In this document: positions 12,786 through 64,000 of the stretch, piece after piece | Layout of the letters: every line of letters starts with the position of its first letter | Numbering within the stretch: position 1 is the stretch's first letter | Source of the DNA: Frankiales bacterium | GTDB taxonomy: Bacteria; Actinomycetota; Actinomycetes; Mycobacteriales; Jatrophihabitantaceae | Length of the DNA: 64,000 nt | Direction: 5' to 3' | Assembly (NCBI GenBank): GCA_025966315.1 | Contig: JAOPUZ010000075.1 | Coordinates: 1-64,000, forward strand | The notes under the pieces: generated by a model | What the model was told of the DNA's origin: nothing | The model's input: only the letters and a program-made list of their open reading frames with translations | Database searches by the model: none | Translations under genes and position numbers: made by a program

Positions 12786-13783
12786 CGCCAGGTTGGAGCT
12801 GGCCCGACGGACGGCCGCGGTGCTGCGGGTGGCGTTCCTCGCCTCGGCGGCGCTGGAGTGGGTTTGCACCTTCGCCACCGGGGTGGTGGCGAAGGTGCAC
12901 CGGCGCGACTCTGCTCGGTTACGTGCACGCACCCCTGCTGCCAGCGCACATCGATGCCCGGCGGGCGGTCTTCGTCCTGCTGCTCGCCCCCGAATTCTTT
13001 CTGCCGCTACGCCGTTATGCCGCCGCGTATCACCAGGGCCAGGAGGCCATCGCCGCCGCAGAAGTGCTACAGCCGCTGACCGCAGGCTCGGGCGCGATCC
13101 GCGCCGCCGCGATAGCCCCGCGGTCGGCGTGGACGCGACCGGCGCCGTCGGTACAGCTCGAGGGAGTCACGGTACGGTTCGCCGGTCGAACGAGGCCGGC
13201 GTTGCGCGATGTCGAGCTGTACCTCCCGCCGCGCCGGGTGCTCGGCGTAGCCGGCGCGTCCGGCTCCGGCAAGTCCACGCTCCTCAGGGTCGCCGGCGGG
13301 TGGCTGGTGCCGACCGAGGGTGTGACCTGGCTCGACGGGAGAAGCACAGCCGATGGCCACCGGGCGCTGCTGATCGGGCAGCAGCCCTACCTGTTCGCCG
13401 GCACGGTGGCGCAGACCCTTGCGCTTGGGCAGCCGGACCTGTCGCCGCAACAGATGTGGGCGGCGATCGAATCAGCCCAGCTCGGTCCGGTGCTGCGGCG
13501 GCTGCCGGACGGGCTCGACACGATCCTCGGCGAACGCGGCTGGGGTTTGTCCGGCGGCGAGGCTCAGCGACTGGCAATCGCGCGGGCGTTCCTGAGCAGC
13601 GCGACGTTGCTCATCGTTGACGAGCCCACCGCCCATCTCGACCGCGACACCGAGCAATCGCTGCTCGAGCCGCTCGAACGGCTGCTCCGCGGTAGGACGG
13701 CGCTGATCGCGAGCCATTCCGCGCAGGTACTCGCGATAAGCGATCACGTCGTCGAACTCGAGGACGGCACCATCCATGGCTGA
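12786..13783 (+). pseudogene. cydD: cydD remnant: ABC exporter subunit lacking its N-terminal membrane domain
   Basis: Similarity begins inside the membrane domain with RTAAVLRVAFLASAALEW (12800-12860). It shifts frame at about 12900 and continues as FVLLLAPEFFLPLRRYAAAY and a full ATPase domain: Walker A GASGSGKST (about 13254-13280), signature LSGGEAQRLAIARAF (about 13548) and Walker B LLIVDEPTAHLD (about 13608). About 220 N-terminal residues with four or more membrane helices are missing compared with CydD (550-580 residues). It ends with TGA 13781-13783, overlapping the cydC ATG by eight bases, the ancestral operon overlap. CydDC exports glutathione/cysteine and is needed for cytochrome bd assembly. 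Confidence 0.85.
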
Positions 13784-15505
13784 GCTTGCGGTCGCGATGC
13801 CGACCGTGCGCCCAGGTCCGCGGCTGGCGCTGGGCTTGCTGTGTGCCGTCATTGCGGCCCTCGCCTCGGCCGCGTTGATGGGACTGGCCGGCTGGTTCAT
13901 CGTGCGGTGTGCGCAGACCGGGCTCTCGACCACGTCCAAGTTCTCCTGGCTCTATCCCAGCGCGGGCGTCGAGGCGCTGGCATTGGCTCGCACCGCTGCC
14001 CGCTATGGGGAGCGCCTCTCGACTCACCGCTCGACGCTCGATCTGCTGGCCTACGTCCGGGGACGGGTATTCGCCTCGGCGACGCGACTGCCGATCGGGC
14101 GGTTGCGGGCGCTGCGCAGCGGCGACCTGCTGGACCGGGTCCAGGCCGACGTGGACACCCTGGACCGCGCCGTCCTCGCGGTTGTCGTGCCTGGTGTCGT
14201 CTGCACCATGGTCGCTGGGTCTGGCCTGGCCGTACTGACGCTCGTGCGGCCGGCCTTCGGCATCGCCGCCGGACTCATGCTGCTGGTCGTCCTGGCGGTA
14301 GACCTGGTCGTGAGCCGTGGCAGCCGGCGCCTTGCCGAGCAGCTGACGCTAGACCGTTCCCGGGCGCGATCTCGACTGGTGGAGGCCCTCGATGGCCGTA
14401 CGGAGCTGGCCAGCTTCGGTGCGAGCCGGCTCGCAGCGCTCGACGTGAAGGAACACTTCGAAGCCCTCGATGCGCCCCGCGCGGGGTTATCAAGACGGGA
14501 GGCGGCCGGGGAAGCGATGATCGCCACCGGGGCGAGCGTGACCCTCGCCGTCATTCTCGCCAGCGGGTCCGGTTTCACGGGCCGGCGCTGGACCCCGCGA
14601 TCCTCGCCCTTGCCGTCCTCGTCGCCGCGGCGATCTTCGAAGCCGCGAAGGGTCTCGGCTCCGCGGGCCAGGCCCTGGCCCAGGCGCGTACTGCCTGGCG
14701 CCGCCTACGTGAATTGACCGGCTTCGGCCTGCGCGGCTGGACCGACGACGACCTGCCGCCGGACGGCGTGAACTCAGACTCGTCGCCGGCCGCGGACGTT
14801 GTGATGTCGGACATCTCGGCCGGCTACGGCGACCGGCTCGTGATCGACCGAGCGTGGCTGGAGATCCCCGCTGGGACGTTCGCGGTGCTCGCCGGCCCGT
14901 CCGGGGCGGGGAAGTCGACGCTGCTTGCGGTCATGGCCGGCGAATTCCCCGGCGTGACCGGCCAGGTGCGGATCGGCGGTCTGGATCCAGCCGCGATCAG
15001 CTACGCGGAACGGGTAGCCAACATCACCCTGATCGAGCAAGACAGCAGCATTCTCAGCGGCACGGTGGCGGACAACCTCCGCCTGGCCCGTCCGAGTGCG
15101 AGCGCGCGGGAACTCGCCGATGCGTTGCGGGTTGTCGACCTGGACAAGGCCATCGAGCTCTCGACCGCGGTCGGGCCCGGCGGCGCATATTTATCGGGGG
15201 GACAGCGCCGGCGACTGGCCCTGGCCCAGGGCTACCTGCGCCGGCCGCGGCTGCTGCTCCTGGACGAGCCAACCGAAGGCCTCGACACCGCAACGGCTCG
15301 ACGCGTGCTCACGAATCTGCGCTCGGCCCTATCGCAGACCACCATCGTCGCCGCGATCCACGATCGCAACCAGGCGAATCTGTCCTCGTCGCTCGGGCCG
15401 GTCATCCGACTTGACGGCGGCCGGGTGGCCTCGTCCGACGGCACGACTGCGGCTCAGCCAGCCGCTGCGGAATTCCTGCTAGCCGGGGGAGCAAAAGCCC
15501 GTTAG
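13776..15505 (+). pseudogene. cydC: cydC with one frameshift: ABC exporter subunit for cytochrome bd assembly
   Basis: The least decayed gene of the operon. ATG 13776 opens a membrane domain (ALMGLAGWFIVRCAQ, GVEALALARTAARYGERL). At about 14580 the frame must change by one base (a missing G in ACGGGCC) to continue as GPALDPAILALAVLVAAAIF and the ATPase domain: Walker A GPSGAGKST (about 14896), signature LSGGQRRRLALAQGYL (about 15187) and Walker B LLLLDEPTEGLD (about 15249), ending TAG 15503-15505. Joined length is about 576 residues, as expected for CydC. A single indel could be a sequencing error, but the partner genes carry large deletions, so loss of function is the simpler reading. Confidence 0.8.
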
Positions 15506-42283: not shown

Positions 42284-43936
42284 ATGGACAGTGAGCCCGA
42301 GCCGCCGGCGAGCGCCCACGCTGAATGGTTTCTCACCGCGGTTGAGCGGGGTAATCCCTGGACGCGGCTGGACCGCGGGAATCCGGCCGGTGCGGCCTGG
42401 ACGGACGGCAACGACGTCACTCCATTGATCCATGGCGCGTCCTATCTGCCCGAACTGTTGCGTTGCATCGAGTCGATGCGGCAGGGAGACCTGCTGCTGT
42501 TCACCGATTGGCGTGGCGATCCCGATCAGCTGATGGACGGACCCGGCACCGAAGTGGGTCGGGTGCTGTGTCAGGCCGCCGGGCGCGGCGTGCTGGTGAA
42601 AGGACTGGTATGGCGTTCGCACCTGGATCGTTTCGCCTTCAGCGAGCAGCAGAATCGCCATCTGGGTGAAGAGATCAATCGGGCTGGCGGCGAAGTCGTT
42701 CGTGACATGCGGGTCCGCGCAGGCGGCTCGCATCACCAGAAATTCGTCGTTCTTCGACATCGCGGGCGGCCCGAGCTAGACGTGGCCTTCGTGGGCGGGA
42801 TCGATCTGTGCCACAGCCGAAGTGACGACGAGGCCCACGACGGCGACGTCCAACGCCAGCCGATGGCCAAGGTGTACGGCGAGCGTCCACCGTGGCATGA
42901 CATCCAGGTTGCGGTGCGTGGACCGGCCGTCAATGATGTCGAAAGCGTTTTCCGGGAGCGGTGGGAAGACCCCACGCGATTGAATCGGAATGTGCTCAGC
43001 AACCTGGCCGATCGGCTGCGCGGCGAGGACGTCGCCCCGAGTCCGCTGCCGGCGCAGCTGCCGGCGCCGGCGCATCGTGGGGTACAGCATGTCCAGCTGC
43101 TTCGGACCTACCCAACCAAGCGGACGCCCTTTCCCTTTGCACCGTACGGTGAACGCAGCGTCGCGCACGCCTATGAGAAGGTCGTCGGGCTGGCGTCGAG
43201 CCTGATCTACATCGAGGATCAGTACTTCTGGAATACCGACATCGTGGCCAGCTTCGCCCGCGCGCTGGAGGCGAAACCCGAACTGCGCCTGATCGTGGTG
43301 TTACCGCTATACCCCGATCAGGACGGACGATTCTCTGAGCCGCCCAATCTGGTGGGGCGGCAGCAGGCACTTGACCTCGTTCGCGAGGCGGGCGGCGAGC
43401 GGGTGGGCATCTACGGCATCGAGAATGCGGCCGGTGTCCCGGTCTACGTCCACGCGAAGGTTGGTGTAGTCGATGACGTGTGGGCCAGCGTGGGCTCCGA
43501 CAACATCAACCGGCGTTCGTGGACGCATGATTCGGAGCTGGCATGTGCCGTTATCGACGACCGGCGCGATGGCCGCAGGCCCGCGGCCATCGATCAATTG
43601 GGCAGTGGCGCGCGAGTCTTCGCCCGTGATCTTCGGCTTCGACTGGCTGCTGAACATCTCGATCGGGCTTCCGGCGACGTCGATGATCTGTGCGATCCGG
43701 TAACGGCATTCGAGGCGTTTGCCCGCACCGCCGATGCGGTCCAACGCTGGCACGACACCGGCAAGCGGGGGACACGTCCGGTGGGTCGGCTGCGGCCCTA
43801 CCGCACGCCACGGCTCTCGAAATCGACCTTGTGGTGGGCAACGCCGTTGTACCGGACCATCTATGACCCGGACGGCCGTGGCCGCCGTGCCGGCGCTCGC
43901 CACGGAGTCGCTGACGGAGGAGCTGCCGGAGGCTAA
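42284..43936 (+). CDS. Phospholipase D-like protein (two HKD motifs)
   Basis: 550 residues. HKD half-sites: HHQKFVVLRHRGRPELDVAF with GGIDLC (about 149-175) and YVHAKVGVVDDVWASVGSDN (about 387-406), the pattern HxKx4Dx6GSxN. The second site is complete. In the first the Asp spacing is stretched and GG replaces GS, as in PLD-like phospholipases. No signal peptide. It hydrolyses or exchanges phosphodiester head groups in related enzymes. Coupled to the DUF1206 membrane protein one base upstream. Its stop overlaps the convergent VanX-like gene by three bases. Confidence 0.92.
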   Translation: MDSEPEPPASAHAEWFLTAVERGNPWTRLDRGNPAGAAWTDGNDVTPLIHGASYLPELLRCIESMRQGDLLLFTDWRGDPDQLMDGPGTEVGRVLCQAAGRGVLVKGLVWRSHLDRFAFSEQQNRHLGEEINRAGGEVVRDMRVRAGGSHHQKFVVLRHRGRPELDVAFVGGIDLCHSRSDDEAHDGDVQRQPMAKVYGERPPWHDIQVAVRGPAVNDVESVFRERWEDPTRLNRNVLSNLADRLRGEDVAPSPLPAQLPAPAHRGVQHVQLLRTYPTKRTPFPFAPYGERSVAHAYEKVVGLASSLIYIEDQYFWNTDIVASFARALEAKPELRLIVVLPLYPDQDGRFSEPPNLVGRQQALDLVREAGGERVGIYGIENAAGVPVYVHAKVGVVDDVWASVGSDNINRRSWTHDSELACAVIDDRRDGRRPAAIDQLGSGARVFARDLRLRLAAEHLDRASGDVDDLCDPVTAFEAFARTADAVQRWHDTGKRGTRPVGRLRPYRTPRLSKSTLWWATPLYRTIYDPDGRGRRAGARHGVADGGAAGG

Positions 43937-55694: not shown

Positions 55695-56573
55695 TTAGCG
55701 GGCGAGGGCGGCGCCGGTGCGCCACCGTGAGAAGTACCGTTCGAGTCGGAGGAATCCGTAGTTGACCGCCACCCCGAGAATGGAGGTGGCGAGGATCGCG
55801 GCGTACATGTCCGGGATCTGGAAGCTCGATTGGGCGTTGACGATCTCGAAGCCCAGACCCGCCTTCGCGCCGACCATTTCAGCGGCGATCAGCACCAGGA
55901 TCGAGGAGGTGGCGGCCATTCTGATGCCGGTGAAGATGGTCGGCACCGCCGAAGGCAGAATCACCTTGACAAATAGGCTCGGACTGGACAGTCCGAGGGT
56001 GCGGGCCGCGCGGACCAGCAACGGGTCGACGGTTTTCACCCCTAACACTGTGTTGAGCAGGATCGGGAAGAAGCTGGCGTAGCTGACGAGGGCGATCTTC
56101 GAGGTCTCCCCGATGCCCAGCAGCAGCGTGAACACCGGCAACAGCGCCAGCGCGGCGGTGTTGCGGAACACCTCCAGCAATGGGTTGAGGAAGCTCTCCA
56201 CCGGCTGGTACCAGCCGGTCAGCAGCCCCAGCGGTATCGCGGTCAAGACCGCGATACCGAAGCCGATGACCGAACGGGTCAGGCTCGCCTTCACATCAGA
56301 AGTCAGCTGCCCGTTCTCGATCAGCCGCCAGGCCGCCTGCAGGTCCTCGTGCAGCGGAGGCAGGAAGACGCGGGTCTGCCCGTCTAGCAGATGATTCGGA
56401 CCGAACTCCCACAGCAGTAGGAACAGTCCGATTGCCGCTGACTTCCACACCCCCCGGCTGATGAGGGCGGCGCCCCGCCGAACGGCGCTTCGGCGGGACG
56501 GCGGCGGAACCACCGCGGCGGAAGGCCCAGTAGTGAGCTGTGTTGTCGAGACCGCGGTGTCCAGCGTGGTCAT
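55695..56573 (-). CDS. ABC transporter permease for sulfonate/nitrate/taurine-type substrate
   Basis: 292 residues, six membrane segments. The N-terminal 35 residues are cytoplasmic. The EAA loop is LVRAARTLGLSSPSLFVKVI LPSAVP (about 190-212, spaced here for legibility), and the segment ILVLIAAEMVGAKAGLGFEI is typical of SsuC/TauC/NrtB proteins. ATG overlaps the ATPase TGA by four bases (56570-56573). The flavin monooxygenase follows after 38 bases. Part of the organosulfur uptake system. Confidence 0.93.
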   Translation of the reverse strand: MTTLDTAVSTTQLTTGPSAAVVPPPSRRSAVRRGAALISRGVWKSAAIGLFLLLWEFGPNHLLDGQTRVFLPPLHEDLQAAWRLIENGQLTSDVKASLTRSVIGFGIAVLTAIPLGLLTGWYQPVESFLNPLLEVFRNTAALALLPVFTLLLGIGETSKIALVSYASFFPILLNTVLGVKTVDPLLVRAARTLGLSSPSLFVKVILPSAVPTIFTGIRMAATSSILVLIAAEMVGAKAGLGFEIVNAQSSFQIPDMYAAILATSILGVAVNYGFLRLERYFSRWRTGAALAR

Positions 56574-57376
56574 CGGGCTGTCCTGTCTTCGGTGTGCAGC
56601 AGCGACCAGATGTGGTGGCGATGGTGCACGAATCTCGGATCCGAACGCAGGTCGCTGCCGACTTGCAGGGCGCCCCGGTCGGCGAGGTTGATGTCGAGGG
56701 TCTCGATGACCCGGCCGGGATGAGCTGAGAGGACAACGACCCGTTGGCCGAGGTAGACCGCCTCGTCGATGGCGTGGGTGATGAACACGATCGTCTTTCC
56801 GGTCTGGTTCCAGATCCGCAGCAGCTCATCCTGCAGTTGTTCGCGGGTTTGCGCGTCCAGGGCGGCGAAGGGCTCGTCCATCAAGAGGATCCCGGGCTCG
56901 TAGGCCAGGCTGCGGGCGATAGCGACCCGCTGTTTCATTCCTCCGGACAGCTCATGCGGGTATCGGGCGGCGAACCCAGCCAGACCGACCAGGTCTAGAT
57001 AATGCCGCGCCACCGTCTGGCGTTGCCGGTGTCGCAGGCCTTTGGCCTCCAGCCCGAACTCGACGTTGGACAAGGCAGTACGCCACGGGAACAGCGCGTA
57101 TTGCTGAAACACCACCGCGCGGTCCAAGCCCGGCCCGGTCACCGGCTGGCCGTCGATTTCAATCCTGCCCGACGTCGGCTTGCTCAACCCACCGAGCAGG
57201 TCGAGCAGCGTCGTCTTGCCGGATCCACTCGGTCCGACCAACGCCACGAACTCCCCAGCCGCGATGTCGAGGGTAATTCCGTCGACGGCGGTCACGACCT
57301 GGCCCGCGGGCTGATCGCGTGTCGGGCGGACGGTGTACTGCTTGCTCACGTTGTGCAGGCTGATCGTTGAGGTCAT
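56570..57376 (-). CDS. ABC transporter ATP-binding protein for sulfonate/nitrate/taurine-type substrate
   Basis: 268 residues. Walker A GPSGSGKTTLLDLLGG (about 53-68), Q-loop VVFQQYALFPW, signature ELSGGMKQRVAIARSLAYEP (about 142-161), Walker B ILLMDEPFAALDAQTREQLQ and the switch His in IVFITHAIDEAVYLGQRVVV. These are SsuB/TauB features. ATG 57376 lies five bases after the binding-protein stop. An earlier non-ATG start at 57385 is possible but overlaps that stop. Confidence 0.95.
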   Translation of the reverse strand: MTSTISLHNVSKQYTVRPTRDQPAGQVVTAVDGITLDIAAGEFVALVGPSGSGKTTLLDLLGGLSKPTSGRIEIDGQPVTGPGLDRAVVFQQYALFPWRTALSNVEFGLEAKGLRHRQRQTVARHYLDLVGLAGFAARYPHELSGGMKQRVAIARSLAYEPGILLMDEPFAALDAQTREQLQDELLRIWNQTGKTIVFITHAIDEAVYLGQRVVVLSAHPGRVIETLDINLADRGALQVGSDLRSDPRFVHHRHHIWSLLHTEDRTAR

Positions 57377-57381
57377 TGCGA

Positions 57382-58419
57382 TCACTCGGCGCCCGACGCA
57401 ATTAGGCCGTTGTAGGCATTGGTGTAGTACTTGGACGGGTCAAGTGCGTCGCCCTTGATGATGCCCGCCGACTGCAACCAGTCGGACCACTCGGTGAAGT
57501 CCTGGTCGCTGATCGCCCCGCCCTTGGACGCGATTCCGATGCTCTTCCAGTACTGAAGGTTCGAGGTGCTCTCGTTCCGGCCTCGACCCTTGATGATCTT
57601 CGTGAACTCAGCGATCACCTGCTCACGCGGGGTCCTTCGTTCCCACTCGATGGCCTTGGCCACTGCTGTGACAAAGGTCTTGACGGTGTCGGGGTTCTTT
57701 TTGATGAAGTCGTCACGGAAGACATATTGGCCGCCGTTGTACGCGCTGAAGATCGCGTAGTCGCTGAAGACCGAGCGTAGGCCGCCCGCGGCGATCGCAT
57801 GGTCCTGCAGCACGCCACTCAGTCCGCCGACGTCGATCTGGCCTTTGCGGATCGCCTCCTCGGTGTTGTTCGGCGGAACGACGACCAGCTGGACCTGCTT
57901 GATCTCACTCGCCGACAATCCGTTCTGCGACAGATATGTGTCGATCACTGCTTCGGCGTTGGCCCCGATGGTGTTCACGCCGATCTTCTTACCGATCAGA
58001 TCCCGGGCGGAATGAATCGGCGAATTGCCTAGCGCGTAATAGCCCTGAAAGGTCTTGGCGTCCGTGCCGTAGTAGTTGATCACCGCCTTCACCGGTGCGC
58101 CGGCCTCGATCAGCTTGACCACCGCACCGGTGAAAGCGCCACCGAAGTCGGTCTGATCAGTAGCCGCGGACTGAATATCCTGCGGCCCGGAAATGGTGTT
58201 GCCCACCCACTTCAGCTTGGTGTTGCCCAGGTAGCCAAGATCGGCGGCAAGCTCCGGAAGCGACACCGCGTTCGCCGAGCCTTGATATCGCAGTGTCGTC
58301 ACCTCAGTCCTACCGCTGGAACTGGCTTTGGTCGCAGAGTTTGCGCTCGAGCAGGCTGTGAGGCCAACCGCAACGGCCACAGCAGCCGCGACAACGATGA
58401 GCGGGTAATTCTTGTTCAC
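57382..58419 (-). CDS. ABC transporter substrate-binding lipoprotein, SsuA/NrtA-like
   Basis: 345 residues from GTG 58419 (AAGGAAG seven bases upstream). Lipoprotein signal: VNKNYPLIVVAAAVAVAVGL followed by TAC-SS (Cys about 23). The binding domain begins TEVTTLRYQGSANAVSLPEL. SPIHSARDLIGKKIGVNTIG (about 132) is the conserved hinge region of SsuA/TauA proteins. First gene of the operon binding protein - ATPase - permease - flavin monooxygenase - TauD dioxygenase. The ligand should be an aliphatic or aromatic sulfonate or sulfate ester, inferred from the two oxygenases. Confidence 0.94.
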   Translation of the reverse strand: MNKNYPLIVVAAAVAVAVGLTACSSANSATKASSSGRTEVTTLRYQGSANAVSLPELAADLGYLGNTKLKWVGNTISGPQDIQSAATDQTDFGGAFTGAVVKLIEAGAPVKAVINYYGTDAKTFQGYYALGNSPIHSARDLIGKKIGVNTIGANAEAVIDTYLSQNGLSASEIKQVQLVVVPPNNTEEAIRKGQIDVGGLSGVLQDHAIAAGGLRSVFSDYAIFSAYNGGQYVFRDDFIKKNPDTVKTFVTAVAKAIEWERRTPREQVIAEFTKIIKGRGRNESTSNLQYWKSIGIASKGGAISDQDFTEWSDWLQSAGIIKGDALDPSKYYTNAYNGLIASGAE

Positions 58420-58457
58420 AGAGTTCTTCCTTGACGAATCGATGACATGGACATGGA

Positions 58458-58481
58458 CATGCCTGTATTTCGATAGGCATG
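58458..58481. promoter_or_regulatory. Inverted repeat upstream of the organosulfur operon
   Basis: CATGCCT, ten bases, AGGCATG. It lies 39-62 bases before the GTG of the binding-protein gene, in the position of a promoter-proximal operator. Confidence 0.5.
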
Positions 58482-58500
58482 GTAGAGATTGCACTTAAAA

Positions 58501-59106: not shown

Positions 59107-59210
59107 CCGGCCTGCTGAAGTCTGACGCGGTTAGCTGAGCATGCTGAGAACGAGTGGTGGTCCGATGAAACGCACCCACAAATCCCGAAGGCCGGAAACT
59201 CGCGGCTTGA

Positions 59211-59260
59211 TGCCACCTAGTGCCACCTAGTGCCACCTAGTGCCACCTACTGCGACCTAA
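59211..59260. repeat. Five 10-bp tandem repeats, TGCCACCTAG
   Basis: TGCCACCTAG three times (59211-59240), then TGCCACCTAC and TGCGACCTAA. The last unit includes the stop codon of the minus-strand sulfatase gene (TAG, 59259-59257). Period 10 bp, about one helical turn. Confidence 0.9.
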
Positions 59261-60945
59261 TGCGGCGGCCGGGACGGCACCGGCACGGCCGGCTGCGGTC
59301 CGTAGGCGCTGAGGAACCGGTCGCGGAAGGCGTCCATCGGCCAGACCGGGGCTTGCGGATCGGGCAACAAGCCGTCCTGCCAGCCCCACGACGAGATCTG
59401 ATCCAGGACCTTCGGGTCGTGGGCGATGATCGAGATCGGTACGTCGTGACCGGACCCGGTACCGCTGACGATCGTGGCCGGCTGGTGATCGCCGAGCACG
59501 ACGAGCACCAGGTTGTCGTCGTGGGCGTTCTTAACGAACGACACCAGACTGCCCAGCGAGTACTGGATCGACTGGCCGTAGGCGGCCTTGACCTGGTCCG
59601 GGTGTCGCCAAACCACACTGGGGGACTGACCCTGGGCCGGCATACCGTCGAAAATCGAACCGTCGCCGACCTGGTTCCAATCGACCAGCCGGGGCAGCGG
59701 TGCCCATGGAGTGTGGGAGGACACCAGATCGATCTCGGCCATCACCGGGGCGTGCGGGGAGGCCAACTCCATCCGCTGGAAGGCGGACAGGATGTACTGG
59801 TCGGGCATGGAGGCATAGCTGAAGGCCGGCCCGGCGTAGCCGACGTTCCGGGCGTCGTAGACCTGGTCGTAGTGGTAGAAGGACGTTCCCTGGGGCCAGT
59901 CCTGGGTGTTGGACGGGACGTCACCGACCGTGCGCCAACCTGCGCGTTTGAACGCGTCGCTGAGGGTGAAGCGGCTGCTCGCGACGAGCTGGTTATAGCG
60001 CTGCTGGTTGTCTATCCACAGCCCTGACTGCAGCGTCGAATGGGCGAGCCAGCTGATCCCGCCGAACGTCGGGGACGTCAGGAACGCACTGCGTGAATCG
60101 AAGCCGGCGGCGCGCAGGCTGGCCGTGCCGGCGTTGAGGACGGCGTCGACCTGTGGCGCGAAGGCTGTGCCCTGAACCGCGACCCGGCCGTAGCTCTCGA
60201 CGAACGCGACGATTACGTCCTTACCGCGCAGCCCGGTGAGCAGATTCGCTCCGGCGGTGGTGCGGTACGGATCGTTGGACACCGCTGAAGCGAACATTCG
60301 CTGATCGCGCAGGCCGTCGCGCACCTGCTGGGCTTGGTCGTACGCCAGGGTGGCCGCACTTCGGGAGGCGATCGGCGTGCCGCTGATGGCCTGGATGCCG
60401 AGCCCGGCGCACAGCACCCAGACCACCGCGAGCGCGGTCACCGTCCGGGCGGACGCCGCGCGATGCCGGGCGGTGAGCCGGGTGAGGCGGATGACCGAGA
60501 ACGTGACCAGCACGAGGATGGCCACGACGAGCAATAGCACGCCGACCACCGCCACGTCGGCCCATCCGTATCCGATCGAGTCGCTCACCACGCCGACTGC
60601 GGGCCCGAAATTGCCCCAGTCGGTCACCGGGTTGAACGGCCGGTCCAGCTCGTCGAAGAAGCCCATATTCAGGATCTTCACGACGGTGATCAAGCCCAGC
60701 ACACCGCCGGCCGCCGCCGCCAGGATCCTTCTGGGACGCCCCGGCAGCACCAGGCCGACCGCGACGACGACGATCCCTTCCAGCGGGATCCGGACGAACG
60801 CGCCGGGCGTGAGCAGGCTGAGCCGATCCGGTGCGGTCAGCGCGAACCAGACCAGCAGGAACGCCAGCACCGTCACCGCCCGGCTCAGCCGAACCTGCTG
60901 GCTCAGCCGCCGGAAGGACGACTTGCGTAGCGGCGGCTTGCTCAT
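59257..60945 (-). CDS. Membrane sulfatase / LTA-synthase-like phosphotransferase
   Basis: 562 residues from ATG 60945. Four to five N-terminal membrane segments (about 22-205, e.g. RAVTVLAFLLVWFALTAPD), then an extracytoplasmic sulfatase-fold domain. KDVIVAFVESYGRVAVQGTA (about 240) contains the metal-binding Glu of LtaS-type enzymes (VxxxxES). TSPTFGGISWLAHSTLQSGL is at the position of the nucleophile region, where Thr or Ser is used. VLVVLGDHQPATIVSG supplies the late Asp-His. The ATG overlaps the CDP-alcohol phosphotransferase TGA by four bases, linking it to membrane lipid or head-group chemistry. Confidence 0.9.
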   Translation of the reverse strand: MSKPPLRKSSFRRLSQQVRLSRAVTVLAFLLVWFALTAPDRLSLLTPGAFVRIPLEGIVVVAVGLVLPGRPRRILAAAAGGVLGLITVVKILNMGFFDELDRPFNPVTDWGNFGPAVGVVSDSIGYGWADVAVVGVLLLVVAILVLVTFSVIRLTRLTARHRAASARTVTALAVVWVLCAGLGIQAISGTPIASRSAATLAYDQAQQVRDGLRDQRMFASAVSNDPYRTTAGANLLTGLRGKDVIVAFVESYGRVAVQGTAFAPQVDAVLNAGTASLRAAGFDSRSAFLTSPTFGGISWLAHSTLQSGLWIDNQQRYNQLVASSRFTLSDAFKRAGWRTVGDVPSNTQDWPQGTSFYHYDQVYDARNVGYAGPAFSYASMPDQYILSAFQRMELASPHAPVMAEIDLVSSHTPWAPLPRLVDWNQVGDGSIFDGMPAQGQSPSVVWRHPDQVKAAYGQSIQYSLGSLVSFVKNAHDDNLVLVVLGDHQPATIVSGTGSGHDVPISIIAHDPKVLDQISSWGWQDGLLPDPQAPVWPMDAFRDRFLSAYGPQPAVPVPSRPPH

Positions 60946-61739
60946 CCAGATCGATCGACACGTGCGGACAGCCCGGCAAGCGCTCGTTCGTGCGTGGGTG
61001 CAAGCAGTGCCACTGGCCGTTGGTTTGCACGCTTCGTAACGCTGACCCGGCGGCGCCCGAGCCACCAGACGTCGCGCCCGAACGATTCCGTGAGCAGGCC
61101 CAGTGCGATAGCCAGCGCGACGTCCATGATCGGCACCGGCAGCACGTCCGCGACGGCGATCGTGAGCACGATGCCTTGAATCGCCGTGACGGGTTTGCGC
61201 CAGTAGCGGGCCGGCAGCGATCGGCGCAGCCACGGCAACAGCCAGCCCGCGGCCACGAAGGCATAGCGTGCGGCCCCGATCACCAGCACCCACGGGCCGA
61301 GCGAGCGTGCGACGTACACACTGAGCGCGAAGATCAGGAACGCGTCGGTCTCCATGTCGAAGCGGGCGCCAAGCTCGGATGCCGTCCCGGTGCGTCGCGC
61401 GACCGAGCCGTCCACCGCGTCGAGTGCCAGCGCGATGGTCGCGAGTAAGACCATGGTTGTCACCGACACCGTGTGGACCGGACCCGGCCGGCTGACCCTG
61501 TCCGCGATCAGCGCCGCGGTGCCACCAGCCAGCGTGGCCCGGGTGAGCGTGACCCGATTGGCCGGTCCAAGGGCGCGCGCGGCGCTGCGGATCAGGCCGC
61601 GGTTGAGCAGCAGGTTCGTGATCAGTCCGCAGGCCGCGCCAACCAGCCAACCGGTCAGGCTCAGGCCGATCGAGCCGGCCAGCGCGCTGAGCAACAGCAG
61701 TTGGGCCGCCAGTCCGATGACTGGACCGCTTCGAACCAT
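60942..61739 (-). CDS. CDP-alcohol phosphatidyltransferase family protein
   Basis: 265 residues. The complete catalytic motif D107-x2-D110-G111-x2-A-R115-x8-G124-x3-D128-x3-D132 lies in DAVDGSVARRTGTASELGAR and following residues. Six or seven membrane helices. Enzymes of this family displace CMP from a CDP-alcohol to form phosphodiester lipids such as PI, PG or archaetidyl lipids. The N-terminal 50 residues add two extra helices. Coupled to the sulfatase-like gene and divergent from the dehydrogenase-pterin-glycosyltransferase genes. The acceptor is unknown. Confidence 0.93.
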   Translation of the reverse strand: MVRSGPVIGLAAQLLLLSALAGSIGLSLTGWLVGAACGLITNLLLNRGLIRSAARALGPANRVTLTRATLAGGTAALIADRVSRPGPVHTVSVTTMVLLATIALALDAVDGSVARRTGTASELGARFDMETDAFLIFALSVYVARSLGPWVLVIGAARYAFVAAGWLLPWLRRSLPARYWRKPVTAIQGIVLTIAVADVLPVPIMDVALAIALGLLTESFGRDVWWLGRRRVSVTKRANQRPVALLAPTHERALAGLSARVDRSG

Positions 61740-61763
61740 TGGAGGCCTACTTCCGTGTTTATG

Positions 61764-61780
61764 GTGTACAGCTGTTACAC
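61764..61780. promoter_or_regulatory. Operator-like dyad between divergent operons
   Basis: GTGTA-CAGCTGT-TACAC, 5-bp arms with a CAGCTG palindrome in the middle. It lies 25 bases from the phosphotransferase start and 62 from the dehydrogenase start, so one regulator could control both operons. Confidence 0.5.
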
Positions 61781-61841
61781 GAGAAATTCAGGAATGCGGT
61801 TCAAGACGCCGCTCAACTCGGGTCCGAGGAGGATGAGGCGG

Positions 61842-62822
61842 GTGCGGCGTGAGGCGCTTGCGTACTGGCTGCGCGAACCTGGCGTCGGTGAGATCCGGCC
61901 GGCGTCGCTGGCCGAGCCCGGTCCGGGTGACGTCCGGGTCCGCACCTGGTACAGCGGGATCAGCCGTGGGACCGAGACGCTCGTGCATCGCGGCGGGGTT
62001 CCGGCGAGCCAGTACGCGGTAATGCGCGCGCCGTTTCAGGACGGCGACTTTCCCGGGCCGGTCAAGTACGGCTACCTCAACGTCGGCGTGGTCGAGCAAG
62101 GACCGCCGGGACTACAAGGACGCACGGTGTTCTGCCTGTACCCGCACCAGACCGAGTACGTCGTACCGGCGACAGCGGTCCTGCTCGTACCGGCCGACGT
62201 GCCGCCGTCGCGGGCCGTGCTGGCCGGCACGGTGGAGACCGCGGTCAACGCGCTCTGGGACGCCGCGCCGCTGGTCGGTGATCGGATCGCGGTCGTCGGG
62301 GCCGGCATGGTCGGCTGCTGCGTTGCCCGATTGCTGGCGCGGTTCCCGGGCATCGAGGTCACGCTCGTCGATATCGATGGCGATCGAGCGGCGATTGCGT
62401 CGGCGCTCGGTGTGGACTTCGAATCGCCGGATGCGGCGGCCGGCGGTCGTGATCTCGTGGTGCATACGAGCGCAACCTCGGCCGGCTTGCAGCGGGCGCT
62501 GGATCTGCTCGGCCCCGAGGGCACCGTCGTCGATCTCAGCTGGTACGGCGATACCGACGTCACGCTCTCACTCGGCGGCGCTTTCCACTCCCAGCGCCTG
62601 GGGATCCGCGCGAGTCAGGTCGGTGCGGTCGCCCCCGCGCGTCGGGCCACCCGGACCATGACCGATCGGCTGGCGCTGGCGCTGGACCTGCTGCGCGATC
62701 CCGCGTTCGACGCGCTGCTGACCACCACCTCACCCTTCGCCGAACTGCCTGAGGTCATGGCCAGGATCGCGGCTGGCACGCTACCGACCCTCTGCCACAT
62801 AATCACCTACGGCGAAAGGTAA
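61842..62822 (+). CDS. Zinc-type alcohol dehydrogenase-like protein, BchC-like
   Basis: 326 residues from GTG 61842; GAGGAGG lies nine bases upstream. An ATG at 61833 sits too close to that site but is possible. N-terminal GroES-like fold: [20 protein letters not shown] (about 33-52), where most MDR enzymes have the catalytic Cys; no Cys is present there. NAD-binding motif [20 protein letters not shown] at about 148. The pattern is closest to BchC-like and ToxD-like proteins that act on tetrapyrrole or other ring side chains. Followed five bases later by the pterin-synthase-like gene. Confidence 0.88.
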
Positions 62823-62827
62823 CTCTC

Positions 62828-63226
62828 GTGTTCAGTGTCACCGTCCGTGACCACATGATGGTCGCTCACAGCTTCCGCGGCGACGTGTTCGGTCCCGCCC
62901 AGCGCCTGCACGGCGCGACGTTCATCGTCGATGCCACCTTCAAGGGCGAGGCTCTCGACGAGGACGGCATCGTGGTCGACATCGGCCGAGCGTCCGAGGA
63001 ATTGCACGCCCTGGTCGGCGAGTTGACCTATCGCAACCTCGACGACGATCCCGCCTTCGCCGGCGTCAATACGTCCACCGAGGTACTGGCCAAGGCCATT
63101 GCCGACCGGCTGGCCGACCGGGTTCACGCCGGTGGTCTCGGGGAAGCGGCACGCAGGTTGGCTGGAATCGCGGTCACGCTGCACGAGTCGCACATCGCCT
63201 GGGCCAGCTACGAGCGGCCGCTATGA
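62828..63226 (+). CDS. 6-pyruvoyl-tetrahydropterin synthase / QueD-like protein with altered zinc site
   Basis: 132 residues from GTG 62828 (AAAGG eight bases upstream). The T-fold pattern is clear: [13 protein letters not shown] (His14), [20 protein letters not shown] (His28), [39 protein letters not shown] and [13 protein letters not shown]. QueD and PTPS use three zinc His in HxxxxxH...HGH and a catalytic Cys; here the second His of HGH is Ala and no Cys is present. The reaction may therefore differ from 6-carboxy- or 6-pyruvoyl-pterin synthesis. The TGA overlaps the glycosyltransferase ATG by four bases. Confidence 0.9.
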
Positions 63227-64000
63227 ACCCAGACCGAGCCGCGCCACCACAGCTACGACCTCGAGCGAAAACGGTCCATGTTGTCGTTCCCGATGGCATC
63301 GACGACCCGGCGCGGCCAAGTGGCGGCAACACCTACGACCGCCGGATCTGCCGGGAACTGCCCGCGACGGGTTGGCAGGTGTCCGAACACGCCGTGGCTG
63401 GCTCGTGGCCCTGGCCAGATCGGGCATCGGAACGGGCGCTCGGCCGGCACCTCGAGGGCATTCCGGACGGCGCGGTGGTGCTGATCGATGGCCTGATTGC
63501 CTCGACCGTTCCGGCGATCCTGGTGCCCGAGGCGCGCCGGCTGCCATTGGTCGTGCTGGTTCACATGCCCCTTGGCGCGGTCGCGAACGAACAGCTCCCG
63601 CCTGATCGGGTCACTGAATTTCGCAGCCGGGAATGCTCGGTCTTCGCCGCCGCCCGAGCCATCGTCACCACGAGTGGGTGGACGCGCGAACGGCTGCTGG
63701 AGCTGTACCCGTTGCGGCCGGCGACCGTGCACGTGGCTGAGCCCGGCACGGATGTCGCCGGCCTGGCGACGGGGACCACGGCCGGCGGCGATTTCCTTTG
63801 TGTGGCCGCGGTCATCCCGCAGAAAGGGCACCACGAGCTGCTGGCCGCGCTGGCGACGCTGGCGGACGTCCCGTGGCGTTGTGCGTTCGTCGGCACCCTC
63901 GACCGCGACCCGGAATTCGTCGAGCGGTTGCGCCGCCAAGCCGAGGCGGTGGGTATCAGCGACCGACTCAGCTTCGCCGGCCCGCTCATCGGGGACGCCC
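63223..64000 (+). CDS. GT4-family glycosyltransferase, 5' part
   Basis: 259 codons to the window edge; the start ATG 63223 overlaps the pterin-synthase-like stop (ATGA). N-terminal donor-independent domain: [20 protein letters not shown] followed by [16 protein letters not shown], where SGGNxY is the early Gly-rich loop of GT-B enzymes. [20 protein letters not shown] and [12 protein letters not shown] mark the linker. [20 protein letters not shown] starts the GT4 C-terminal domain (usual: VGRLxxxKG). The rest of the nucleotide-sugar site lies outside the window. Product could be a glycosylated pterin or related small molecule, inferred from context. Confidence 0.93.

Follow-up and report, generated by a model that had tools for sequence, protein, structure and literature searches.

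A conserved actinobacterial gene cluster around an SCO6650-type T-fold protein and a possible route from GTP to a membrane-lipid headgroup

The residue roles in the active site of T-fold proteins of the PTPS/QueD superfamily are known from work on PTPS. The structure paper on SCO6650, a Streptomyces coelicolor protein of this fold, reportedly describes it as lacking both zinc and PTPS activity and as having a pocket that would accommodate a pterin-like substrate. The neighbouring GTP cyclohydrolase II (GCHII), SCO6655, has reportedly been studied biochemically as well and is said to form only the formamide, Met120 explaining the stop. This earlier work is said to have handled single proteins rather than a pathway. 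Here we analysed a stretch of 64,000 nucleotides from a Frankiales bacterium (contig JAOPUZ010000075.1 of assembly GCA_025966315.1, positions 1 to 64,000; hereafter the window), at whose end a gene for a T-fold protein of this type lies in a cluster of eight. We propose that the cluster, which many actinobacteria from soil have in common, belongs to a dedicated actinobacterial pathway in which a GTP-derived, pterin-like headgroup is built and placed on a membrane phospholipid, a proposal that we regard as evenly poised between right and wrong. It would give SCO6650, which was crystallised without a known function, and SCO6655 their steps within one and the same pathway.

The eight genes form two divergent operons, two genes on the minus strand (an LtaS/EptA-like sulfatase-fold protein and a CDP-alcohol phosphotransferase) and six on the plus strand (an MDR-superfamily dehydrogenase, the T-fold protein, a GT4 glycosyltransferase, an S-adenosylmethionine (SAM) methyltransferase, an LPG_synthase_TM flippase-like protein and a RibD_C reductase), the last three lying past the window on the full contig (C10). 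Conservation was assessed in two sets of loci. The first comprised the best 80 of 261 loci from a scan of named genomes with the window T-fold protein; these are its nearest matches and so a biased sample, and some are clipped at contig ends. For the second, 394 genomes were drawn evenly from the window's class, and in these the T-fold protein was called at E 1e-20, the dehydrogenase at E 1e-30 and the window-type (type A) RibD_C reductase at E 1e-35; every T-fold place except the window's own was fetched, giving 57 loci. The sets share loci (L005/L108, L047/L114 and L063/L117), and the 137 loci represent 134 distinct T-fold genes.

The T-fold protein was found in 57 of the 394 genomes and the dehydrogenase in 58, namely the same 57 and one more with a paralogue of 37% identity (G067); the two go together. 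In the neighbourhoods of the even draw (n=57) we found GT4 in 57, the dehydrogenase in 56, the flippase-like protein in 50, the phosphotransferase in 49, the methyltransferase in 47, GCHII in 45, a creatininase-family protein in 31 and the LtaS-like protein in 18. The dehydrogenase missing from the one remaining locus (L157) lies on a different contig of that genome. The corresponding counts for the named genomes (n=80), which include Streptomyces and Micromonospora, were 79, 78, 74, 70, 71, 69, 44 and 17. A preliminary description of the window had joined five of these genes, from the sulfatase-like protein to GT4, in a possible undescribed pathway and had set linkage in other genomes as its test. 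All five are real, and the strong linkage in 80 + 57 loci, with 56/57 for the dehydrogenase and 57/57 for GT4, supports one conserved pathway; the LtaS-like member proved an optional part (17/80 and 18/57). Together with the co-occurrence of T-fold protein and dehydrogenase in the 394 genomes, this linkage led us to reject a chance neighbourhood. Further genes had been predicted beyond position 64000, and the forward operon indeed continues to 66881. Four kinds had been named as a check: the methyltransferase and reductase lie directly downstream, and GCHII and the creatininase occur in the clusters of relatives.

The individual gene families are known; the set as a whole is one for which we found no product. 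The word undescribed was nevertheless only half apt, given that the structure of SCO6650 itself had been solved (3D7J) and that earlier work on it and on SCO6655 is reported. A search of the open literature, from which subscription papers are mostly absent and which is therefore no proof, returned no description of the pathway or its product, and a search on the tag SCO6650 returned no paper naming it. Recurrent neighbouring open reading frame groups beyond the named families were annotated in part; they resemble Streptomyces neighbours or antisense frames. One cluster (L061, SCSG01000020.1) lies on a contig binned as Burkholderiaceae and has a third-position GC of ~0.7, compared with 0.8-0.97 in most of the other loci inspected, reflecting either horizontal transfer or a binning error. 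Phosphatase genes adjoin two single clusters, one of the inositol-monophosphatase family (L066:14670-15467, +) and one of the HAD family (L023:7323-7997, -), and could possibly provide a dephosphorylation step.

The T-fold gene (62828-63226, +) is the sole PTPS-family match in the window genome. Its product scores 84.5 bits against PF01242 (PTPS; cut-off 22.4), and its best match in the PDB is 3D7J, 'Uncharacterized protein SCO6650' (E 7e-66 over 132 residues); the only other match is 2G64, a putative PTPS, at E 0.00093. Judged by its sequence, the window protein is the SCO6650 orthologue. It stays below the curated models TIGR03367 (QueD; 38.5 bits, cut-off 89.25) and TIGR00039 (31.4 bits, cut-off 125.5). 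Site roles were assigned by alignment to 2G64, and the active-site stretch was covered in 136 of the 137 loci. In all 136 the first two zinc His are retained, Ala stands at the catalytic Cys position, and the third zinc His has given way to Ala (135 loci) or Val (one locus). None of the 135 loci readable at the catalytic Asp-His pair has both residues; two have the Asp alone and two the His alone. Near the C-terminus, the ring-binding Glu sits in an HES motif in 126/137 loci and follows a different residue in 10 of the 11 others; the remaining stretch stops before this position. Loss of the HGH zinc His and the catalytic Cys, first noticed in the window protein, is lineage-wide.

We next consider the source of the pterin-like ring. 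Relatives' clusters hold GCHII and a creatininase-family protein, both recognised by Pfam, and 114 loci have a GCHII that is readable at the site which we take, in E. coli numbering, to be the equivalent of Tyr105. This residue is non-Tyr in 74 of 74 loci with creatininase (Met 63, His 5, Leu 5, Gln 1) and Tyr in 39 of 40 loci without it; with duplicates removed the counts are 72/72 and 38/39. The exception (L149, Leu) has its creatininase ~3.5 kb outside the fetched stretch. When the whole genomes of the 13 Tyr-type carriers from the even draw were searched for creatininase (E 1e-25), 12 gave no match and G052 gave a distant one, 40% identical. A non-Tyr site accompanied by creatininase fits the reported formamide stop of SCO6655. 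The SCO6655 work is cited in PMC3509567, and PMC9478397 demonstrates that creatininase-family formamidases convert AFRPP to DARoPP and notes that BrbF originally bore a creatininase annotation.

The combination that marks a formamide-stopping GCHII, loss of the Tyr105 equivalent with creatininase alongside, was found in relatives' clusters only (74/74). Searches of the window genome found neither a creatininase nor a cluster copy of GCHII, so this genome does not carry the formamide-stopping version. Its RibBA (contig C29) has Tyr at the GCHII site, and a separate RibD_C gene also lies on C29. A second RibBA-like gene of the window genome (L085, C53 ~43079-43564) has lost the GRGIG stretch and kept three zinc-site Cys; by its sequence it would be either a degenerate or a neofunctionalised paralogue.

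Among NCBIfam models the window reductase (66189-66881, +; RibD_C family) scores best with TIGR01508, the diaminopyrimidine reductase of Archaea, at 122.6 bits and thus short of the cut-off of 186.45; in Archaea this reductase acts on the diamino compound. Two RibD_C subfamilies occur in the clusters, type A in 26/80 and 15/57 loci and type B in 8/80 and 6/57, so that some RibD_C gene is present in 34/80 and 21/57. Across whole genomes, type A turned up in 46 of the 57 with the T-fold protein and in 51 of the 337 without it (Fisher p 1e-22, with no correction for kinship). The 6 genomes that carry type B in the cluster all lack type A, and one type or the other is present in 52 of the 57. A type A match of at least 50% identity exists in 14 of 16 genomes of the named loci, in 2 of them as the in-cluster gene; the other two genomes are those of L017, with type B, and L076, with none in the cluster. 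Type B and creatininase occur together in 11 loci, and type A is never found with creatininase in a cluster. GCHII and RibD_C share a single open frame in L160:11117-12472 (-), L161:12996-14930 (-) and L082 ~13360-14532 (+), a fusion that links both steps. No deaminase was found among the annotated recurrent cluster genes, and the 2-amino group should therefore remain on the ring. In L098, L102, L105 (Streptomyces) and L103 an unlinked type A gene adjoins another GCHII, and three of these also adjoin a small gene that is MarR-like by eye; the neighbours suggest a separate small locus, perhaps SCO2687.

Zinc MDRs carry GICGTD at the motif that holds a zinc-ligating Cys. In the window dehydrogenase (61833-62822, +) Ser44 takes this position within GISRGTE, and it is invariant in 28 of 28 aligned sequences, in agreement with the preliminary description, which had noted that the usual Cys was missing. 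Its label as BchC-like is weak, since the NCBIfam BchC equivalog scored 47 bits against a cut-off of 291.25; ADH_zinc_N was likewise not reached (22.8 bits, cut-off 31.8). The predicted model (pLDDT 93.0) is MDR-like and matches threonine, sorbitol, xylitol and idonate dehydrogenases (TM ~0.75) and many other MDRs. The GT4 gene (63223-64344, +; cut by the window end at 64000) matches PF00534 (Glycos_transf_1) with 104.7 bits and retains the EX7E motif as ETYGMVVTE. Its nearest NCBIfam model is MshA (82 bits, cut-off 462.5), and a PDB sequence search at E up to 1e-15 gave no match. It is followed by the SAM methyltransferase (64341-65195, +).

Three gene products point to a lipid. The CDP-alcohol phosphotransferase (60942-61739, -) matches PF01066 (CDP-OH_P_transf; 49.1 bits), and its motif DxxDGxxARx8GxxxDxxxD, intact at residue 107 in the window, is retained in 117 of 119 hit stretches. 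The flippase-like protein (65192-66196, +; Pfam, 108 bits) belongs to LPG_synthase_TM, the family of the MprF flippase. The LtaS-like protein (59257-60945, -) stays under the Pfam Sulfatase cut-off (21.9 bits against 25) and gave no match in a PDB sequence search at E up to 0.01; it consists of a helical N-terminal half, by analogy the membrane part, and an alkaline-phosphatase-superfamily domain. Its predicted model (pLDDT 85.9) is nearest to LtaP/LtaS (4uop and 4uor, E 8.4e-10), followed by MCR-1/EptA among others. None of the 35 loci with an LtaS-like protein lacks the phosphotransferase. The two share one open frame in 16 of these 35 (15 of 34 distinct), for example L005:14740-16995, L061:14254-16623 and L111:10089-12470, with 13 further loci; they are adjacent in 7 and apart in 12, and the window keeps the halves as overlapping separate genes. 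Ten fused frames that were scanned all match CDP-OH_P_transf, and 2 reach E<0.001 for Pfam Sulfatase, below the cut-off; the kinship of the fused half to LtaS is drawn from sequence alignment and the predicted model of the window protein. The simplest reading is that a headgroup lipid is made inside, flipped and handled outside.

Stage-resolved expression values come from one gene of the S. coelicolor locus. PMC3610822 lists SCO6652 as conserved but functionally unassigned and gives log2 values relative to first mycelium of 0.8 (24 h, substrate), 4.3 (48 h, aerial) and 4.1 (72 h, spore), a 17- to 20-fold induction in the aerial and spore stages. By tag order SCO6652 lies between SCO6650 and SCO6655 and so inside the cluster, and from the gene order in other Streptomyces it should be the methyltransferase.

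Altogether, we propose the following route. Where creatininase is present, GCHII would open GTP and stop at the formamide (FAPy/AFRPP), from which the creatininase-family amidase would remove formate; the Tyr version of GCHII would directly give 2,5-diamino-6-ribosylaminopyrimidinone phosphate, and in the window genome the housekeeping RibBA would supply the pyrimidine. The RibD_C reductase would then produce the ribityl compound without prior deamination, keeping the 2-amino-4-oxo (pterin-type) ring. These cyclohydrolase and reductase steps are well supported and draw on family knowledge. From here on we infer the chemistry. The zinc-free T-fold protein would grip the ring through its conserved Glu while the dehydrogenase helps to remodel the side chain. 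The simplest chemistry would be oxidation of the ribityl C2' hydroxyl by the dehydrogenase, after which the T-fold protein would assist ring closure with the 5-amino group, giving a pterin of the dihydroneopterin type (7,8-dihydropterin); on paper, a T-fold pocket with a ring-binding Glu would be a fair place for such a closure. GT4 would glycosylate and the methyltransferase methylate the product, the phosphotransferase would couple it to CDP-diacylglycerol, the LPG_synthase_TM protein would flip it and, where present, the LtaS-like protein would transfer or cleave the phospho-headgroup outside. A more specific version is tentative and less likely than not: the product may be an unrecognised class of phospholipid, made in aerial hyphae and spores of actinomycetes and exposed on the outer membrane face, with a glycosylated and methylated pterin (or 2,5-diaminopyrimidine) headgroup that arises from GTP independently of folate and whose pterin ring the zinc-free T-fold protein and the zinc-free dehydrogenase close from a ribityl precursor. 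The preliminary description's suggestion of a glycosylated pterin or lipid-linked small molecule thus remains a proposal, although one with much stronger support than before.

Several observations weigh against this route. On the GCHII tree (111 rows) Tyr loss and creatininase go together along just one branch, which amounts to one evolutionary event and provides no statistics of independent ones; after the split the site varied among Met, His, Leu and Gln. The reductase is absent as either type from five T-fold genomes (G018, G205, G297, G368 and G378), and type A is also carried by 51 genomes that lack the T-fold protein; in 64 loci (62 distinct) the fetched stretch contains creatininase but no RibD_C, and 4 of 8 unlinked type A genes that were fetched adjoin another GCHII and may serve another pathway. 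A Streptomyces locus (L078) has a T-fold protein 73% identical and no partner gene within 10 kb. The distant loci L158, L159 and L162, of which the latter two were fetched with little upstream sequence, have only the dehydrogenase, T-fold protein and GT4 close together, so that in these genomes the lipid genes may be dispensable or lie elsewhere. If the reductase makes a ribityl compound, an Amadori-type reaction of the T-fold protein, as in GTP cyclohydrolase I, would be blocked, and oxidation by the dehydrogenase must be assumed. Finally, the T-fold, dehydrogenase, GT4, methyltransferase and lipid steps are our own deductions.

In the strongest alternative, the product is a soluble glycosylated pterin or pyrimidine cofactor; the membrane genes would then do no more than export it, or would belong to an adjoining envelope function. 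Cyanopterin and the mycofactocin glycosides follow a comparable general plan. Dehydrogenase, T-fold protein and GT4 form a core that varies least of all and stand alone in the three distant loci, and MshA, the best NCBIfam model for GT4, is an enzyme of a soluble product. However, the phosphotransferase (49/57) and flippase (50/57) are nearly as constant as that core, and fusion of the phosphotransferase to the LtaS-like protein implies a lipid-borne substrate. We consider this alternative possible but rather unlikely.

The aerial and spore-stage induction of SCO6652 would also fit an envelope glycopolymer, a polyol-phosphate (e.g. ribityl-phosphate) chain built by the phosphotransferase, flippase and LtaS-like protein from a GTP-derived ribityl part. 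LtaS and LtaP are the nearest folds and the reductase would give ribityl phosphate, yet the LtaS-like protein is present in only 18/57 loci, no gene for CDP-ribitol synthesis or polymer export was found among the annotated recurrent genes, and a polyol polymer needs no pterin-fold protein; we think this quite improbable. Decidedly unlikely is a flavin, deazaflavin or roseoflavin-like product, with GCHII and RibD_C as duplicates of the riboflavin branch and the T-fold protein as a helper. Both are riboflavin-pathway families, but deaminase, DHBP synthase, lumazine synthase and riboflavin synthase are missing from the annotated recurrent genes (other recurrent groups having been left unannotated), the window genome has its separate RibBA and RibD_C on C29, and expression of SCO6655 correlates negatively with its predicted flux (-0.61; PMC2853524). 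We rejected as very improbable the reading in which the T-fold protein works as a normal QueD/PTPS through a different metal site and its operon is a chance neighbourhood: despite Pfam PTPS membership and two of three zinc His kept, the Cys and one zinc His are lost in 136/136 covered loci, the Asp-His pair is intact in 0/135, the QueD model is not reached, SCO6650 reportedly has neither zinc nor PTPS activity and the dehydrogenase is linked in 56/57 loci.

The tight packing of the two divergent operons, already remarked upon in the preliminary description, was borne out: across the eight genes, adjoining genes overlap by 4, 4, 4, 4 and 8 bases, a 5-base gap separates the dehydrogenase and T-fold genes, and 93 bases lie between the operons. 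The operator-like dyad that the operons were thought to share exists as an imperfect dyad, GTGTACAGCTGTTACAC, at 61764-61780 (no strand). The pattern GTGTAN{5,8}TACAC occurs at one place in the window genome, and the reversed control pattern at 2 forward and 2 reverse, so the rarity of the dyad is no more than expected by chance. A TGTA-type dyad was found upstream in only 1 of 134 relatives (L004). We therefore rejected a shared conserved operator, and the window dyad is a possible operator that is lineage-specific at best. In many Streptomyces loci that were inspected, the best inverted repeat is a different dyad of the form CCGCGTACTGTGCGCGG. A short tandem repeat at 59210-59259, with four copies of the unit ntgccaccta and a variant, reaches the stop codon of the sulfatase-like gene. 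Beyond the cluster, inspection of 56570-58494 (-) by eye suggests the ATPase of an ABC transporter and a nitrate/sulfonate/taurine-type solute-binding lipoprotein.

The proposed pathway, spread over 57 of the 394 sampled genomes of the class, shares parts with several known systems. With QueD/PTPS proteins (COG0720) the T-fold protein shares its Pfam family, the ring-binding Glu and two of the zinc His, whereas here the Cys, third His and Asp-His pair are gone and the cluster holds GCHII, not GTP cyclohydrolase I. Another is the SCO6650/SCO6655 locus of S. coelicolor, with an orthologous T-fold protein showing the same residue losses as the window protein in the aligned sequence; Streptomyces clusters of this type carry GCHII with a non-Tyr site, while the window cluster lacks GCHII and creatininase and instead has RibD_C and LtaS-like genes. 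The FAPy formamidase route of archaea and bacteria (ArfA/ArfB, BrbF) also uses a formamide-retaining GTP cyclohydrolase and then an amidase, but ends in riboflavin; here no later flavin enzyme is among the annotated cluster genes, and the intermediate would lead to the T-fold, dehydrogenase and membrane genes. In the phosphatidylinositol/phosphatidylinositol mannoside and lysyl-phosphatidylglycerol systems, the same kinds of enzyme are found (CDP-alcohol phosphotransferase, GT4 and an MprF-type flippase domain), a headgroup being joined to CDP-diacylglycerol and glycosylated by GT4, but the headgroup here would come from GTP, not from inositol or glycerol. The LtaS/EptA/MCR phospho-headgroup transferases are the best structural matches of the sulfatase-like protein, at 11-16% identity, and differ in that 16 of the present loci have the protein in one open frame with a CDP-alcohol phosphotransferase. 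If the product is indeed a lipid, pterin chemistry would be joined to membrane lipids in a way for which, to our knowledge, there is no counterpart among described systems.

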